A stretch of DNA of 64,000 bases. Origin: Paenimyroides baculatum. Lineage in GTDB: Bacteria > Bacteroidota > Bacteroidia > Flavobacteriales > Flavobacteriaceae. This document shows positions 17,577-49,581 of this stretch, piece after piece. Both the position numbers and the translations under genes were made by a program. The DNA is taken from positions 248,001-312,000 of the forward strand of contig NZ_VWSG01000001.1 of assembly GCF_008629655.1 (NCBI RefSeq), written 5' to 3'. Position 1 is the stretch's first letter, and every line of letters starts with the position of its first letter. Below the pieces are notes generated by a model, which saw nothing but the letters and a program-made list of their open reading frames with translations, was not told the origin of the DNA and searched no databases.

Positions 17577-17595
17577 TTATTAAAATTTAAAAGAT

Positions 17596-18204
17596 ATGTT
17601 TATGAAAAAAAGTTTTTTAACCTTATTAGGTTTAGTTGCTATCTCTACAACTGCAGTAGCGCAGCAAGAAGTAAAATTTGGTCCAAAAGCCGGCGTTAAT
17701 ATTGCTAATTTGTCTGGATTAGACAATAGTGAAATGAAAATTGGTTTTCATGTAGGTGCTGTTGCAGAAATTAAATTTAACGAAAAATTTTCAGTTCAAC
17801 CAGAGGTTCTTTATTCAGCTCAAGGAGCAAAAAGTTCAATAGTAACACCATTAGGGACTATTGAGAGTGAGGTAAAGAATGACTACATTAATGTGCCAAT
17901 TATGGCAAAGTATTACATAGTAGAGGGTTTTTCGGCTGAATTAGGACCGTACGTTGGTTTCTTGATGAAATCTGAAACAAAGGTTGGTGATGTTACGGCT
18001 GATGCTAAAGATTCTTATAAATCTGTTGACTTTGGTTTAGGTGTTGGTTTAGCTTATGATTTACCTATGGGACTTTTTGTTGGAGCGAGATATAATTTAG
18101 GATTATCAAAAGCTAATGAAGATGTACCAGCAGGAATTCTTACAGTTCAAACAGATGATATTAAAAACGGTGTAATCCAAGTAGGAGTTGGTTACAAATT
18201 CTAA
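17596..18204 (+). CDS. Outer-membrane beta-barrel protein, PorT-like (paralogue 1 of 3)
   Basis: This is a 202-residue exported protein; the ATG at 17602, giving MKKSFLTLL, is an equally good start. A signal peptide ends near TTAVAQQE. The mature part has the OMP_b-brl_2/PorT pattern of alternating strands: VKFGPKAGVNIANLSG, FSVQPEVLYSAQGAK, VPIMAKYYIVEGFSAELGPY and a final VGVGYKF with C-terminal Phe for BAM assembly. It is one of three tandem paralogues. Each has its own promoter or terminator, so they are separately expressed units. Function unknown. Confidence 0.85.
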   Translation: MFMKKSFLTLLGLVAISTTAVAQQEVKFGPKAGVNIANLSGLDNSEMKIGFHVGAVAEIKFNEKFSVQPEVLYSAQGAKSSIVTPLGTIESEVKNDYINVPIMAKYYIVEGFSAELGPYVGFLMKSETKVGDVTADAKDSYKSVDFGLGVGLAYDLPMGLFVGARYNLGLSKANEDVPAGILTVQTDDIKNGVIQVGVGYKF

Positions 18205-18222
18205 TAATTAAGATATTTAGTT

Positions 18223-18250
18223 AAACCGCAACATATTGTTGCGGTTTTAT
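18223..18250 (+). terminator. Terminator after barrel paralogue 1
   Basis: The stem AAACCGCAACA/TGTTGCGGTTT is followed by T-rich sequence. It is nearly the same sequence as the terminator after paralogue 2, consistent with duplication of the whole unit. Confidence 0.8.
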
Positions 18251-18285
18251 TTTTTATATTTTTTCGTTAAATTATATAACATAAT

Positions 18286-18293
18286 TATATTTG
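18286..18293 (+). promoter_or_regulatory. Bacteroidota -7 promoter of barrel paralogue 2
   Basis: TATATTTG matches TAnnTTTG, 23 bases before the start codon, in the same context (ATATTTGTT) as the promoter of paralogue 1. Confidence 0.55.
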
Positions 18294-18315
18294 TTGAAAA
18301 TTAAAAATTACAATT

Positions 18316-18972
18316 ATGAAAAAAATTACCTTAACCCTTTTAGGGTTAGTTGCATTCTCTACAAGTGCATTAGCGCAACAAGAAGTAAGATTTGGTCCTA
18401 AAGCAGGTGTTAATATTGCTAATATAAGTGGAAAGGATGCAAATGACAATAAAATGTTAATCGGCTTTCATGTGGGAGCATTTGCAGAAATTAAGTTCAA
18501 CGAAAAATTCGCTGTTCAGCCGGAGATTCTGTATTCGGCTCAAGGGGCAAAACGTGAAGGAACTAGAAATGTTATGGGTGTGAATGTAACTACAAATACT
18601 ACATCTAAAATTGATTATATTAATGTGCCTATTATGGCTAAATATTATATAGCGCCAAGTTTTGCTGTTGAAGCAGGACCTTATGTTGGTTTTCTAATGT
18701 CTGCAAAAACGGAAGGAACAATTAATTCCATGGGTGAAAACGTGTCAATTGAGAGTGATGATAAAGATTTTTCTAACTCTATTGATTTTGGTGTTGGCGC
18801 TGGAGCAAGTTTCAATTTAGATAATGGTTTTTTTATTGGAGCTCGTTATAATTTAGGTTTGTCAAAAGTAGGTAAAGATAATACACTAAATTTTGGAGAT
18901 GTTGATATTAATGTTGAAGCTTTAGATACTAAAAATGCAGTCATTCAAGTTTCTGTTGGTTACAAATTCTAA
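18316..18972 (+). CDS. Outer-membrane beta-barrel protein, PorT-like (paralogue 2 of 3)
   Basis: This 218-residue protein is closely similar to the preceding one. The signal peptide (MKKITLTLLGLVAFSTSALA) differs from that of paralogue 1 by only a few residues. It continues with RFGPKAGVNIANISG, FAVQPEILYSAQGAKRE and VPIMAKYYIAPSFAVEAGPY, and ends VSVGYKF. The main differences are longer surface-loop insertions (around residues 80-100 and 135-160), as expected for barrels whose loops diverge fastest. Recent tandem duplication is the simplest explanation. Function unknown. Confidence 0.85.
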   Translation: MKKITLTLLGLVAFSTSALAQQEVRFGPKAGVNIANISGKDANDNKMLIGFHVGAFAEIKFNEKFAVQPEILYSAQGAKREGTRNVMGVNVTTNTTSKIDYINVPIMAKYYIAPSFAVEAGPYVGFLMSAKTEGTINSMGENVSIESDDKDFSNSIDFGVGAGASFNLDNGFFIGARYNLGLSKVGKDNTLNFGDVDINVEALDTKNAVIQVSVGYKF

Positions 18973-18990
18973 TAAGTAAAGATATTAAGT

Positions 18991-19021
18991 AAAACCGCAA
19001 CAATTTGTTGCGGTTTTTTTG
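18991..19021 (+). terminator. Terminator after barrel paralogue 2
   Basis: The stem AAAACCGCAACAA/TTGTTGCGGTTTT is followed by a T-run. It is the sister copy of the element at 18223. Confidence 0.85.
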
Positions 19022-19129
19022 TGGAAAAAAGTTACAGTTTAATAATTTGCGCAGTAACATGTTTGTGTTATTTTGAGTAACTTCGGCTTTGGATTAAAAT
19101 TTGATAAATAATTCATAAAGCCCAATACT

Positions 19130-19723
19130 ATGAAAAAGTTACCTAAAATTATAACAATGCTTTTTACTGTGTTTTTATGCGGAAATGCAGTACAGGCGCA
19201 AGATTTCTCATTCGGACCTAAAGTGGGTTACAACAATGCAAAATTAGAAGGGAAAAGCTGGCAGGATTTTCACGACAATAATTCCATTAATGGATTTCAC
19301 GTGGGTGCATTTGCAGAAATTCGTTTTAACAAATTTGCCATTCAGCCCGAAGTTTATTATTCGTCAGCAGGTGGTAAATGGAAAACTACATTTGAAAACG
19401 CTACCGTTGAACACGATTTTAACTTAAGTTATGTAAACGTGCCGTTAATGTTGAAGTATTATATTACCAACGGAATTGCCATTGAAGCAGGTCCACAAGC
19501 CGGATTTTTAACCGATTCGAAAGTTAAGTTTTCAGACTTAAATCCGGACAGTACTAAATTCAATGACTTTGATTTTTCGCTGAATGTTGGTTTAAGTGTC
19601 AATTTACCATTAAACTTTATGATTTCTGCGCGTTACAATGCCGGAATGACAAATGTTATCGATGAACCGAATGTTGACTGGAAAAACCGCGTAATGCAAC
19701 TTTCTGTCGGATATCGTTTTTAA
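19130..19723 (+). CDS. Outer-membrane beta-barrel protein, PorT-like (paralogue 3 of 3)
   Basis: This 197-residue protein has a signal peptide ending at AVQAQDF. It shares the barrel framework of the two genes before it (FSFGPKVGYNNAKLEG, FAIQPEVYYSSAGGKW, VPLMLKYYITNGIAIEAGPQ, final LSVGYRF) but is clearly more diverged than they are from each other, so this split is older. No terminator hairpin is obvious after it; instead a repeat-rich gap begins. Function unknown. Confidence 0.82.
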   Translation: MKKLPKIITMLFTVFLCGNAVQAQDFSFGPKVGYNNAKLEGKSWQDFHDNNSINGFHVGAFAEIRFNKFAIQPEVYYSSAGGKWKTTFENATVEHDFNLSYVNVPLMLKYYITNGIAIEAGPQAGFLTDSKVKFSDLNPDSTKFNDFDFSLNVGLSVNLPLNFMISARYNAGMTNVIDEPNVDWKNRVMQLSVGYRF

Positions 19724-19808: not shown

Positions 19809-19840
19809 AAATAAGAAAGCTGTTTAGGAAAGTTAACTAT

Positions 19841-19920
19841 TGTCATTCCGGACTTGATCCGGAATCTCATTTATTTTGATTAAAAACTTTATGAGAAGCT
19901 GAATCAAGTTCAGCTTGACA
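19841..19920. repeat. Dispersed hairpin repeat, two arms with CTTGA loops
   Basis: Arm 1 reads TGTCA, then stem ATTCCGGA-CTTGA-TCCGGAAT, then TCTCAT. Arm 2, inverted, carries stem AAGCTGAA-CTTGA-TTCAGCTT and closes with TGACA. The whole element is an inverted repeat of two hairpins with different stems but the same loop. It is 80 bases long and has no coding potential. Confidence 0.8.
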
Positions 19921-19944
19921 AATTAGTGTTTGTTAAACAGTTTT

Positions 19945-30215: not shown

Positions 30216-30248
30216 AAAAATTGCTACTTGAAAAATTATATAACAGGT

Positions 30249-30315
30249 TATCATTTCGAACTTGATTCGAAGTCTCAAATTAATGATGGGAAGCTGAATC
30301 AAGTTCAGCTTGACA
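30249..30315. repeat. Dispersed hairpin repeat, two arms with CTTGA loops
   Basis: Arm 1 is TATCA, stem TTCGAA-CTTGA-TTCGAA, then GTCTCAA. Arm 2 is the same AAGCTGAA-CTTGA-TTCAGCTT arm (inverted) as at 19841, ending TGACA. It lies in the gap between the convergent DinB and alpha/beta hydrolase genes. Confidence 0.75.
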
Positions 30316-30346
30316 AGTAGTAACTTTCAGATAGTTTTAATTAAAT

Positions 30347-32107: not shown

Positions 32108-32183
32108 TTTTAATAAATATACAATTTTAATACCAATTTCTTCAATTGCCTATTTAAAATTTAACTCTGCTATGATTTACATT

Positions 32184-32285
32184 TGTCAAGCTGAACTTGT
32201 TTAACTTCGTTCTGTTCGCAAGCTCGGGTCAGCTTCTCATTATTTTACATTTAAGTATGCGATCCTGAATCAAGTTCAGGATGAC
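32184..32285. repeat. Composite dispersed repeat with nested unit
   Basis: Arm 1 begins TGTCAAGCTGAACTTGTT. It is interrupted by about 25 bases containing TTCGCAAGCTCG before it resumes TCAGCTTCTCAT. Arm 2, inverted, is the stem ATCCTGAA-CTTGA-TTCAGGAT bordered by GTC. The nested TTCGCAAGCTCG unit recurs at 49545-49556. Confidence 0.65.
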
Positions 32286-32303
32286 TGCGACGAAGACTGG
32301 GAA

Positions 32304-39152: not shown

Positions 39153-39275
39153 AACTTTATAATTTTCTTGTTCTTTATAAAGTTACGCTTTTTTAAATCG
39201 AAACAAAAGAAGATTTTTTACAAAGCACTTTTTAGAGCAATATTAGGTTAAGCTGTCTAAAAACATTTCTTACTA

Positions 39276-39345
39276 TGTCATTCCGGACTTGATCCGGAAT
39301 TTCATTATCTACTTTATGAGAAGCTGAATCAAGTTCAGCTTGACA
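39276..39345. repeat. Dispersed hairpin repeat, two arms with CTTGA loops
   Basis: The same two-arm element as at 19841: TGTCATTCCGGACTTGATCC first, then inverted AAGCTGAA-CTTGA-TTCAGCTT with TGACA, but with a 10-base shorter middle. It lies between the YiiX-like gene and the PEP-mutase-like gene. Confidence 0.8.
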
Positions 39346-39367
39346 AATGATTATTTTTAGGCACCTT

Positions 39368-43235: not shown

Positions 43236-43346
43236 AATTTTATTTTTTAATGGGTAAAGATAATAAACAATTTAAAAATATACTTAACCAATCTTTAGAA
43301 TGTTGAAAAACTAATGTTTCTAATTACGTTCTTAACTAAAAAAGAG

Positions 43347-43367
43347 ATTCCGGAACAAGTCCGGAAT
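43347..43367. repeat. Dispersed hairpin repeat, single arm
   Basis: The inverted arm ATTCCGGA-CTTGT-TCCGGAAT is preserved as a perfect 8-pair stem. It lies between the ftsX operon start and the 95-residue gene, without the second arm seen at 19841. Confidence 0.7.
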
Positions 43368-43395
43368 AACACAAATAAATATTTTAAAACTGCTT

Positions 43396-43922: not shown

Positions 43923-46769
43923 ATGAAATACAATCCAAAAGAAATAGAAGCCAAATGGCAGAAATACTGGAGCGATAACAATACGTTCAAAGCAAGTAAT
44001 CAATCTAATAAACCAAAATATTATGTGTTAGACATGTTTCCTTATCCGTCTGGTGCAGGCTTACACGTTGGGCATCCGCTAGGTTACATTGCGTCAGATA
44101 TCTATGCGCGCTACAAACGCCATCAGGGTTTTAACGTACTGCATCCGCAAGGATACGATTCTTTTGGTTTGCCGGCAGAACAATACGCAATTCAAACAGG
44201 GCAACATCCTGCAGTTACAACCGAAACAAACATAAACCGTTACCGCGAACAGCTGGATAAGATTGGTTTTTCATTCGATTGGAACCGCGAAGTGCGTACA
44301 TCAAATCCGGAATATTATAAACATACACAGCGCATTTTTATTCAGTTGTTTAATGCGTGGTACAATAAAAATACCGATAAAGCAGAAAGCATCTGTACGT
44401 TGATCGATTTATTTTCGAAAGAAGGAAATGCGACTGTAAATGCAGTATCCGATGAAAATATCGAAGTTTTTTCTGCCGATCAGTGGAATGCTTTTTCTGC
44501 CGATGATCAAGAAAGAATTTTATTAAAATACAGATTGACCTATTTGGCTGAAACCGAAGTAAACTGGTGCCCTGCATTGGGAACGGTTTTGGCGAACGAT
44601 GAAATTGTAAACGGTGTTTCAGAACGCGGTGGGCATCCGGTGATTCGTAAAAAAATGACTCAGTGGAGCATGCGTATTTCTGCTTATGCAGAACGTTTGT
44701 TGCAAGGTTTGGATACGATCGACTGGAGTGAATCTATCAAAGAAGCACAACGTAACTGGATCGGAAAATCTGTTGGTGCGTCTGTAACTTTTAATGTAAA
44801 AGAATCAAACGAAACAATCGAAGTGTTCACAACGCGTCCTGATACTATTTTCGGTGTTAATTTCATGACATTGGCTCCGGAACACGAATTGGTTGCTGCA
44901 ATTACAACTGCTGATCAAAAAGCGGCTGTTGATGCGTATATTCAAGCAACGTCAAAACGATCAGAACGTGAGCGTATGGCAGATGTTAAAACCATTTCGG
45001 GTGTGTTTACCGGTGCGTATGCAGAACATCCTTTCACCAAAGAACCGGTTGCAATCTGGATTGGCGATTATGTTTTGGCAGGCTACGGCACGGGTGCGGT
45101 TATGGCGGTTCCGTGTGGTGACGAGCGCGATTATGCGTTTGCGAAACACTTTGCCTTACAAAACGGAATGCCTGAAATCATTAATATTTTTAATAAGGAT
45201 ATTTCTGAAGAAGCGTACACCGAAAAAGCTGGTTTTGAATTACAGAATTCCGATTTTTTAAACGGAATGGATTACAAGGAAGGGACTAAAAAAGCTATCG
45301 ACGAATTAGAAAAGATAGGGCAGGGCAAAGCCAAAGTAAATTACCGTTTACGTGATGCTGTTTTTTCGCGTCAGCGTTATTGGGGTGAGCCTTTTCCGGT
45401 TTATTATGTGAACGGATTACCTAAAATGATCGATCCGAAATATTTACCGATTGAATTACCCGAAGTAGAAAAATATTTACCAACCGAAGACGGACAGCCG
45501 CCATTAGGTAACGCGATAAATTGGGCTTGGGATACCGTAAATAATAAAGTAGTTTCAAGTGATCTTGTCATCCCGAACGAAAGTGAGGGATCTCAAACCA
45601 TTTTCCCTTTAGAACTAAACACCATGCCGGGTTGGGCAGGTTCGTCTTGGTATTGGTTGCGATATATGGATGTTGATAATGAAAACGAAATCGCATCGAA
45701 AGAAGCTATTGATTACTGGCAAAATGTAGATTTATACATTGGTGGAAGCGAACACGCAACCGGACATTTACTGTACTCTCGTTTTTGGAACAAGTTTTTA
45801 AAAGATTTTAATATAGTACCAACCGAAGAACCGTTCCAAAAATTAATCAATCAAGGAATGATTTTGGGAATGAGTGCAATCGTTTACAGAGTTTCTGGAA
45901 CAAATAAATATGTTTCTAAAAATCTTAAAGGCGATTATGAAGTTGAAGAATTACGAGTTGATGTAAGTTTAGTAAATGCTTCTGATGAAATTGATATTGA
46001 AGGATTAAGAAATTGGATTCCTGAATTTAAAGAAGCAGAATTTATATTAGAGAACGGAAAGTACTATGTTGGGCGTGAAGTTGAAAAAATGTCTAAACGT
46101 TGGTATAACGTAGTAAACCCGGATGATATTTGTAACGAATACGGTGCAGACACTTTGCGTTTATACGAAATGTTTTTAGGTCCGTTAGAACAATCTAAAC
46201 CTTGGAATACTGCGGGAATTACTGGTGTATTTGGTTTCCTTAAAAAACTTTGGCGTTTGTATGCAGACGATAACGGATTAATCGTTACCAACGATGAACC
46301 AACGGCTGAAATGTATAAATCGTTACATAAAACAATCAAAAAGGTAACCGAAGATATCGAGAATTTCTCGTTCAATACATCGGTTTCTCAATTCATGATC
46401 TGTGTAAACGAACTGCAACAGCAAAAATGCAACCACCGAGCTATTTTAGAGCCGTTGTCAATTGTAATTTCGCCTTATGCACCGCACATTGCAGAAGAAT
46501 TATGGAATATGTTGGGTCATACTGATTCAGTTTCACAACAACCATTTCCAAAGTTCGAGGAGAAATATTTGATAGAGAGTTCAAAAGAATATCCGGTTTC
46601 GTTCAACGGAAAAATGCGTTTTAAAATAGAATTACCTTTAGATTTAACCGCAGAACAAATCGAAGAAATTATTATGAACGATGAACGCACACAGGCGCAA
46701 TTACAAGGTAAAACTCCTAAAAAAGTAATTATCGTTCCTGGTAAAATCATCAATTTGGCTGGGTTTTAA
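43923..46769 (+). CDS. leuS: Leucine-tRNA ligase
   Basis: This 948-residue class I synthetase has the HIGH-type motif in GLHVGHPLGYIASDIYARYK, the CP1 editing domain (TTRPDTIFGVNFMTLAPEHE, GTGAVMAVPCGDERD) and the KMSKS motif in VEKMSKRWYNVVNPDD. The anticodon-binding helical region is at the C-terminus. It charges all tRNA-Leu species and edits norvaline and isoleucine. Residues 548-558 (LVIPNESEGSQ) come from a palindromic dispersed repeat lying in frame within the gene, next to TIFPLELNTMPGW. This replaces what is normally a short surface loop. Confidence 0.96.
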   Translation: MKYNPKEIEAKWQKYWSDNNTFKASNQSNKPKYYVLDMFPYPSGAGLHVGHPLGYIASDIYARYKRHQGFNVLHPQGYDSFGLPAEQYAIQTGQHPAVTTETNINRYREQLDKIGFSFDWNREVRTSNPEYYKHTQRIFIQLFNAWYNKNTDKAESICTLIDLFSKEGNATVNAVSDENIEVFSADQWNAFSADDQERILLKYRLTYLAETEVNWCPALGTVLANDEIVNGVSERGGHPVIRKKMTQWSMRISAYAERLLQGLDTIDWSESIKEAQRNWIGKSVGASVTFNVKESNETIEVFTTRPDTIFGVNFMTLAPEHELVAAITTADQKAAVDAYIQATSKRSERERMADVKTISGVFTGAYAEHPFTKEPVAIWIGDYVLAGYGTGAVMAVPCGDERDYAFAKHFALQNGMPEIINIFNKDISEEAYTEKAGFELQNSDFLNGMDYKEGTKKAIDELEKIGQGKAKVNYRLRDAVFSRQRYWGEPFPVYYVNGLPKMIDPKYLPIELPEVEKYLPTEDGQPPLGNAINWAWDTVNNKVVSSDLVIPNESEGSQTIFPLELNTMPGWAGSSWYWLRYMDVDNENEIASKEAIDYWQNVDLYIGGSEHATGHLLYSRFWNKFLKDFNIVPTEEPFQKLINQGMILGMSAIVYRVSGTNKYVSKNLKGDYEVEELRVDVSLVNASDEIDIEGLRNWIPEFKEAEFILENGKYYVGREVEKMSKRWYNVVNPDDICNEYGADTLRLYEMFLGPLEQSKPWNTAGITGVFGFLKKLWRLYADDNGLIVTNDEPTAEMYKSLHKTIKKVTEDIENFSFNTSVSQFMICVNELQQQKCNHRAILEPLSIVISPYAPHIAEELWNMLGHTDSVSQQPFPKFEEKYLIESSKEYPVSFNGKMRFKIELPLDLTAEQIEEIIMNDERTQAQLQGKTPKKVIIVPGKIINLAGF
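45566..45595. repeat. Palindromic dispersed repeat inside leuS
   Basis: TGTCATCCCGAACGAAAGTG followed by AGGGATCTCA has the borders (TGTCA, TCTCA) and paired stem (ATCCC/GGGAT) of the intergenic repeat family. It is exactly 30 bases, a multiple of three, so the leuS frame is kept. Confidence 0.7.
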
Positions 46770-46779
46770 AAGAAACCTT

Positions 46780-46849
46780 CGTCAGTTCGAGCTTGTCGAG
46801 AACTTAACTTCTCGATACACTTCACTGCGTTTCGTTACTCGAAGTGACG
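46780..46849. repeat. Dispersed palindromic repeat, TTCGAG-type
   Basis: CGTCAGTTCGAGCTTGTCGA starts arm 1 and the element ends TTACTCGAAGTGACG, giving CGTCA...TGACG borders. Related to the unit at 19754. It follows the leuS stop codon by 10 bases. Confidence 0.65.
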
Positions 46850-46874
46850 ATATGAATTCGAATTAATTTATACA

Positions 46875-49419: not shown

Positions 49420-49471
49420 ATATAGGAGATTGTTGTGAAAGTCATATCAAGCTTTAATTTTACGCTTCTAG

Positions 49472-49581
49472 GTCATGCTGAACTTGTTTCAGCATCTCAC
49501 AAGATTAAAAAATGATGATATTTATGATGCGATTGCTTCGCCAGTTCGCAAGCTCGTGTCCGTGTCAAGCACGGAATGACA
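49472..49581. repeat. Composite dispersed repeat with nested unit
   Basis: The region 49420-49722 contains no gene. It holds arm ATGCTGAA-CTTGT-TTCAGCAT with GTC/CTCA borders, a middle AT-rich part, the nested TTCGCAAGCTCG unit shared with 32214, and a final inverted arm TCCGTG-CTTGA-CACGGA ending TGACA. Nothing else is recognisable in the remaining about 140 bases before the antiporter. Confidence 0.7.

Follow-up and report, generated by a model that had tools for sequence, protein, structure and literature searches.

A CGTC-type REP in frame within leuS of Paenimyroides baculatum, and a probable recurrent landing site for REPs in Flavobacteriaceae LeuS

The CGTC REPs described in PMC3733652 (Di Nocera et al. 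2013) include a TGTC variant and have a stem of 8–9 bp that starts with AT, a loop of 4–5 nt and a short unpaired tail, mostly CCA. According to the same description, they are mostly intergenic, frequently form inverted dimers, occur in Bacteroidetes and have no dedicated transposase; in-frame copies are known, including some in tRNA synthetase genes, and recB of two Xanthomonas species carries REPs at about the same site. The source also equates CGTC-1 and CGTC-4 of R. conorii with the elements RPE-6 and RPE-4, so the likeness to Rickettsia palindromic elements drawn in the initial annotation was apt. Tagged, Bacteroidetes-borne and synthetase-located copies are thus already described. In the open-licence PMC literature, as judged by titles and abstracts, we found no report of the parallel use of one protein loop across a family, nor of REPs in Flavobacteriaceae LeuS. 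REPINs and the GTAG REPs mobilised by RAYT form a second comparable group of short, non-autonomous palindromes arranged in inverted pairs.

The window (the whole analysed stretch of 64,000 nt) contains leuS, encoding leucyl-tRNA synthetase (LeuRS), at 43923–46769 (+), an ORF of 948 codons (948 aa) without an internal stop. Its product carries the Pfam domains tRNA-synt_1_2 (editing domain) and Anticodon_1, and matches Thermus and E. coli LeuRS among PDB sequences (1h3n, E 1e-174). The fold of its AlphaFold model matches LeuRS structures (4ari, Z 19.9, rmsd 6.0 over 687 residues). Domains, PDB matches and fold together mark it as a normal bacterial LeuRS. Within the gene, positions 45566–45595 (+) read TGTCATCCCGAACGAAAGTGAGGGATCTCA, a CGTC-type REP copy laid out as TGTC + ATCCC-GA-AC-GAAA-GT-GA-GGGAT + CTCA, i.e. 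a TGTC tag, a 22-nt imperfect palindrome at 45570–45591 (+) that folds as 5 bp, GA/GA mismatches, 2 bp and a 4-nt loop, and a CTCA tail. This 30-mer is in frame, as first proposed; it touches residues 548–558, starting at the third codon base of Leu548 and ending at the second codon base of Gln558.

The 30-mer had been assigned to the intergenic repeat family. Its tag (TGTC), its tail (CTCA) and a stem that starts with AT agree with this assignment, but the core, GAACGAAAGTGA, is not the local GAACTTG(A/T)TTC. The window holds ten copies of this related REP family, tagged TGTC and ending in a CTCA tail; in most of them the palindrome is 21 nt long and built around GAACTTG(A/T)TTC. Many local copies form inverted pairs. 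Intergenic pairs lie at 19839–19922 (19839–19871 +, 19890–19922 −), 30247–30317 (30247–30279 +, 30285–30317 −) and 39274–39347 (39274–39306 +, 39315–39347 −), and single intergenic copies at 43341–43373 (−) and 49469–49501 (+). At 32182–32288, an interrupted copy (32182–32241, +), which overlaps a 112-aa ORF at its end, is followed by a second copy (32256–32288, −). Elsewhere in the window, DNA repeats that are 69–81% alike and spaced 714–829 bases apart (17577–19333) suggest three tandem related genes.

A covariance model, R1, built from nine window copies and one relative, was searched over the 3.34-Mb genome. With 150 of 2558 candidates scored, it found at least 69 copies at E≤0.01, of which 65 overlap no ORF of at least 90 aa. 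The remaining four meet ORFs 91–157 aa long, three at the edge and one inside a 116-aa ORF (C4:9007) that has no Pfam match; where a copy touches the ORF at C2:45277, the Pfam domain begins past the repeat. None of the 69 copies was found within a gene of a recognised family, the check covering these two of the four ORF-touching copies, which leaves the leuS copy as the only one found in a recognised gene among the 70. This is also the difference from Rickettsia RPE-4 and RPE-6, which resemble the leuS repeat as palindromes read in frame inside proteins, a link that runs through the description in PMC3733652. The leuS copy is absent from the 74 matches of R1 at E≤1 (150 of 2558 candidates scored). 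A genome search for the 30-mer, which the initial annotation had treated as one of a dispersed family, gave no second copy within 3 mismatches and one looser relation (C8:12328). The leuS copy is therefore a rare, single-copy subtype, the odd one in its genome.

The local family is multi-copy, dispersed, mostly intergenic and in many cases arranged in inverted dimers, and on these features it classes with the CGTC-tagged REPs. The TGTC variant of the tag is found at 45566 and in most of the 69 family copies. The R1 stem is 8 bp with a 5-nt loop, and some local copies start with AA or AC instead of AT; the leuS copy starts with AT and has a 4-nt loop and 7 bp broken by GA/GA. The window repeats differ from the published CGTC REPs in their CTCA tail (mostly CCA in the latter), and the leuS copy also in its interrupted 5+2 bp stem. 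The TGTC tag likewise separates them from the GTAG-tagged REPs mobilised by RAYT. Y1_Tnp was the only transposase type tested, and a single such gene was found in the genome, RAYT-like (L133:1339-1941, on contig C26), with no R1 match within 1.5 kb. With no REP beside this gene, a RAYT was rejected as the mover; the gene itself adjoins short tandem repeats read as VLQNTNR. DUF559 was also considered as a mover and rejected, none being found in the window's own genome.

The host segment of the REP, between the anchors NA..W and TMPG, spans residues 530–570 (45510–45632, +). It has 41 residues in the window's LeuS and 35 in most Flavobacteriaceae LeuS. Nearly all family sequences without a repeat or an odd loop have 35 residues, in line with the earlier claim of a shorter segment in other Flavobacteriaceae; an equal-length conserved sequence, which would have marked the segment as ancestral, was looked for in relatives and is not there. 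The window's protein reads VVSSDLVIPNESEGSQTI at the loop, its nearest relative (G027) VVSSNEVENETI and a second relative (G022) VVSTTEINNETI, the REP being absent from leuS of both. The net gain is 6 codons (18 nt), with about 4 codons (~12 nt) of host sequence replaced, and is not a clean 30-nt insertion. The frame had been thought to survive since 30 is a multiple of three; with ~12 nt replaced, this property is not what preserves it. Precise insertion boundaries or target duplications were sought by comparison with G022 and G027, which proved too diverged at the intergenic REPs; one clear REP (L217:18554) came out of a scan that covered 100 kb in G022 and 36 kb in G027.

Two further observations concern the surroundings. 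Directly after leuS, at 46779–46850, an inverted pair of CGTC-tagged repeats was recognised by eye; it is absent at that place in G022 and G027, and a similar 72-bp sequence (89%) lies elsewhere in G027 (L219:6821-6891). Within the genus, related species differ greatly at LeuS residues ~655–680, before KMSK, a segment hypervariable in sequence as well as length that can hold tens of additional residues.

That this is ordinary LeuS sequence resembling a repeat by chance, with no insertion at all, is scarcely credible. The aligned place in G027 holds CGAACGAAGT, which does resemble the core, but the length, tag, palindrome and tail all coincide in the window's copy, and relatives hold other REPs at the same site. 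A shuffle test with the 26-mer itself expects 0 matches but is circular; a chance origin is excluded by the recurrence of several REP types at this very position in relatives.

The history of the copy in the window's own clade is not that of a simple recent gain. The leuS of G1046, which by DNA identity is nearer to the window's genome (G000) than G022 is, has the identical 30-mer (30/30), while its flanks match at 51 of 60 positions on the left and 57 of 60 on the right. In the LeuS tree, G000 and G027 are grouped (support 96) with G1046 outside, and the absence of the 30-mer from G027 thus calls for loss or local exchange. One possibility is that the copy predates the split, with later loss or replacement in G027; the other is local exchange. 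The unchanged 30-mer could also reflect selection on the insert for a function, as a new protein loop or as an mRNA hairpin affecting leuS translation. The RNA fold points the same way (−9.5 kcal/mol, z −2.15, 8 of 200 shuffles equally good); the corresponding hairpin in DNA has little stability under standard energies (−3.4 kcal/mol, z −0.92, 34 of 200 shuffles folding equally well). We consider such a function improbable as a general explanation, since the peptide varies with REP subtype and frame, close relatives do without the insert, and similar inserts occur in unrelated enzymes; a function in a single lineage would still be compatible with these data.

The insert was expected to occupy a tolerant loop, and the structural evidence supports this without proving it. 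In an AlphaFold model of moderate quality (mean pLDDT 72.6, pTM 0.63, 37-row alignment), it lies between strands 542–545 and 560–563, with pLDDT <50 at residues 552–555. In the phmmer alignment it faces the TTCPKCGG stretch of Thermus LeuRS and a gap in the E. coli enzyme, a length-variable part of LeuRS. The model, the alignment and the recurrence described below would together be consistent with a loop that tolerates insertions.

To place the window's copy in the family, a head-first search pattern was run over 397 Flavobacteriaceae genomes; 52 matched, and the matching sequences were then judged by eye. A REP-like palindrome is present at the leuS loop in 18 of the 397, representing 18 genera, the window's own included. 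A phylum sample of 395 genomes contained 41 family members, of which 5, all of the window's genus, have a REP at the loop; the other 354 gave no REP among their matches by eye, an unfair test in that their LeuS may lack the segment or its anchor codons. Loci collected by LeuS similarity gave 27 REP-containing rows, or 28 with G1046, from at least 18 genera and with several CGTC-type REP types. Thus, one leuS loop has been hit in parallel across a family, compared with recB in two species for the published Xanthomonas case.

Within each of 27 copies, the arms pair at 120 of 135 positions by Watson-Crick rules (shuffled mean 69; none of 10,000 shuffles as high). The arms match within and not between copies, and palindromes of different types must therefore have arrived. 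In five of the 28 rows (L194, L205, L207, L222, L223) the forward copy is preceded by an inverted one and both are in frame, the inverted copy of L194 having a worn tag. Net gains over the usual loop range from 1 codon (L110, L221) to 20 codons (L205, L207), and the REP heads fall 18, 8 and 1 times in the three forward frames.

It could be argued that the leuS sequence itself attracts REPs, in that the loop's Leu-Val codons would contain a TTGT-like site recognised by the movement machinery. By eye, 15 of the 28 copies begin with CTTGTC or CTTTGTC, and all single copies lie head first. However, the search pattern fixed the orientation, so this bias is independent only for the 7 REP-containing rows among L003–L132; a stop codon interrupts the common types when they are read in the other forward frame (by eye), so that selection also explains the orientation; and a second loop near residue 292, in the LeuS editing domain, takes REPs too (12 of 171 ORF sequences). 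Recognition of this kind is, on balance, unlikely. Among the flanked loci L053–L132, 7 REP cores lie in leuS (4 in this loop, 3 near residue 292), 21 elsewhere and none in other ORFs of at least 150 aa, a distribution with a chance of 0.001 if insertions were proportional to coding bases, although few neighbouring genes are covered.

Other kinds of insert were seen in LeuS. The proteins of four relatives, L037, L038, L039 and L042 (G016, G025, G028 and G031), have in-frame inserts of ~120–137 aa near residue 292, with repeat peptides of the PLSxGEG or PAPSxGGG type beside them; that of L038 is DUF559 (Pfam E 1e-34), the other three being assigned by likeness, and L037 has a second such insert near residues 423–428. 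These look like in-frame mobile genes that are not spliced out. In L129, L048, L210 and L227, a different in-frame palindrome (of the CCCCTTCGGGG type), or its likeness, stands in this REP-receiving loop region, shortly before TMPG.

The recurrence could alternatively stem from one old insertion, or a long-loop form of leuS, spread by descent and segment exchange, the REP later being swapped by gene conversion with resident copies. REP-free LeuS mostly reads DNxT(V/I)FPLELN, while NG(I/V) precedes (F/Y)PLELN in most REP-containing sequences outside the window's genus and in L035, L067 and L086, within or near that genus, a pattern that could reflect a long-loop form passed on by descent or by transfer. 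The scheme also accommodates the long loops of L184, L185 and L197, which show no clear REP, and the sharing of one identical copy by G000 and G1046 to the exclusion of G027. Against it, copies of the window's genus (G000, G029, G585, G534, G597) keep the ordinary T(I/V)F flank and hold several REP types, and the copies occupy two main reading frames with net gains of 1–20 codons. The tree also speaks against a single event. It was built from LeuS without the loop using FastTree, with 28 REP-containing rows (enriched by the pattern search) and 132 REP-free rows. Identical and duplicate rows, that of G022 among them, were dropped; so were seven unclear rows, three with long loops (L184, L185, L197) and four with the other palindrome or its likeness (L129, L048, L210, L227); L051, L195, L049 and L104 gave no usable ORF or anchor. 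The distribution requires 25 changes, 21 of them on branches with support of at least 95, and shuffled labels need 26 on average; REP-containing rows hardly cluster. Among the 120 rows fetched before the REP search at this site (L003–L132, 2 unclear rows unscored), 7 are REP-containing, the window's included, and require 7 changes. A single old insertion is accordingly a rather unlikely account.

The REP types found in leuS were compared with those resident in each genome by counting two core types, GAGCGnAGTCGA and GAACTTG, genome-wide in 35 genomes, leuS's own copies included. All 11 genomes whose leuS has the GAGCGnAGTCGA core only (G078, with a decayed copy, among them) have more GAGCGnAGTCGA than GAACTTG, and all 4 whose leuS has the GAACTTG core only (including G366 and G172, with one-core dimers) have more GAACTTG. 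The leuS core thus agrees with the commoner genomic core in 15 of 15 testable genomes (Fisher p 7e-4), a test that covered neither mixed dimers and other cores nor G597 and the window's own copy. At least four core matches were found in 23 of 23 genomes with a REP in leuS (22 of 23 without leuS's own copies), versus 2 of 10 hand-picked genomes with a REP-free leuS (p 3e-5). G027 and G022 were counted but kept out of these controls. The former has 44 core matches and no leuS copy, so resident REPs are not sufficient; the latter has none. For the GAACTTG pattern, the genome-wide counts are 29 in G027 and 0 in G022.

The window's own copy is an exception to the match with resident subtypes. In its genome the leuS subtype has 1 copy, against 30 matches for the GAACTTG pattern and 8 for the GAGCGnAGTCGA core. 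The 22-nt core pattern of the window's copy occurs in just 3 of 398 genus genomes, in leuS of G000 and G1046 and in metG (methionyl-tRNA synthetase) of G923; on this count, residents of the window's own subtype were rejected as its source. In metG of G923 (L242:1-2034) this 22-nt copy, close to that of the window, is also in frame, the REP being read as VISNESEKS.

In two relatives, G013 and G263, REPs also stand inside the frames of other enzymes. Nineteen stretches of G013 account for all 26 of its GAACTTG copies, of which 1 is in leuS and 7 are inside six other ORFs of at least 120 aa: a KDO transferase, a transketolase/E1 dehydrogenase-like protein, RmlD, a radical SAM protein, an OYE-type oxidoreductase and IleS, the last with two inverted copies. 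Twenty stretches of G263 hold 32 of its 46 GAGCG copies; leuS contains 1 of them, and another 3 lie in the ORFs of PurL, PrmC and YggS. With 7 of 26 and 3 of 32 copies in ORFs other than leuS, REPs inside genes are commoner in these genomes than in that of the window.

Taken together, we regard it as probable that leuS received the 30-mer in frame as a CGTC-type REP, and that its loop recurrently serves resident REPs as a tolerated landing site. On entry, the 30-mer would have replaced about 4 codons of this loop between two β strands. In many Flavobacteriaceae, a REP, usually of a type resident in the genome concerned, would have been copied or moved into the loop. Copies are seen only where the frame stays open, and between close species they appear to come and go; out-of-frame insertions would be purged, and the insert would be close to neutral for LeuRS. 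The copying may proceed through a single-stranded hairpin, moved by an activity acting in trans.

More broadly, and tentatively, the leuS loop may be a standing target of the REP-moving activity in Flavobacteriaceae, acting as a naturally occurring insertion trap in which the REP types once active in each lineage are recorded, with REPs repeatedly supplying new loops to class I tRNA synthetases (leuS, ileS, metG). CGTC REPs have no known mover, and a conserved gene that catches them many times in parallel, with sites both filled and empty among related species, gives defined insertion events. The target, the unit and the mechanism could be read from such events. The loop would also represent a family-wide way of turning selfish DNA into protein loops of an essential enzyme.
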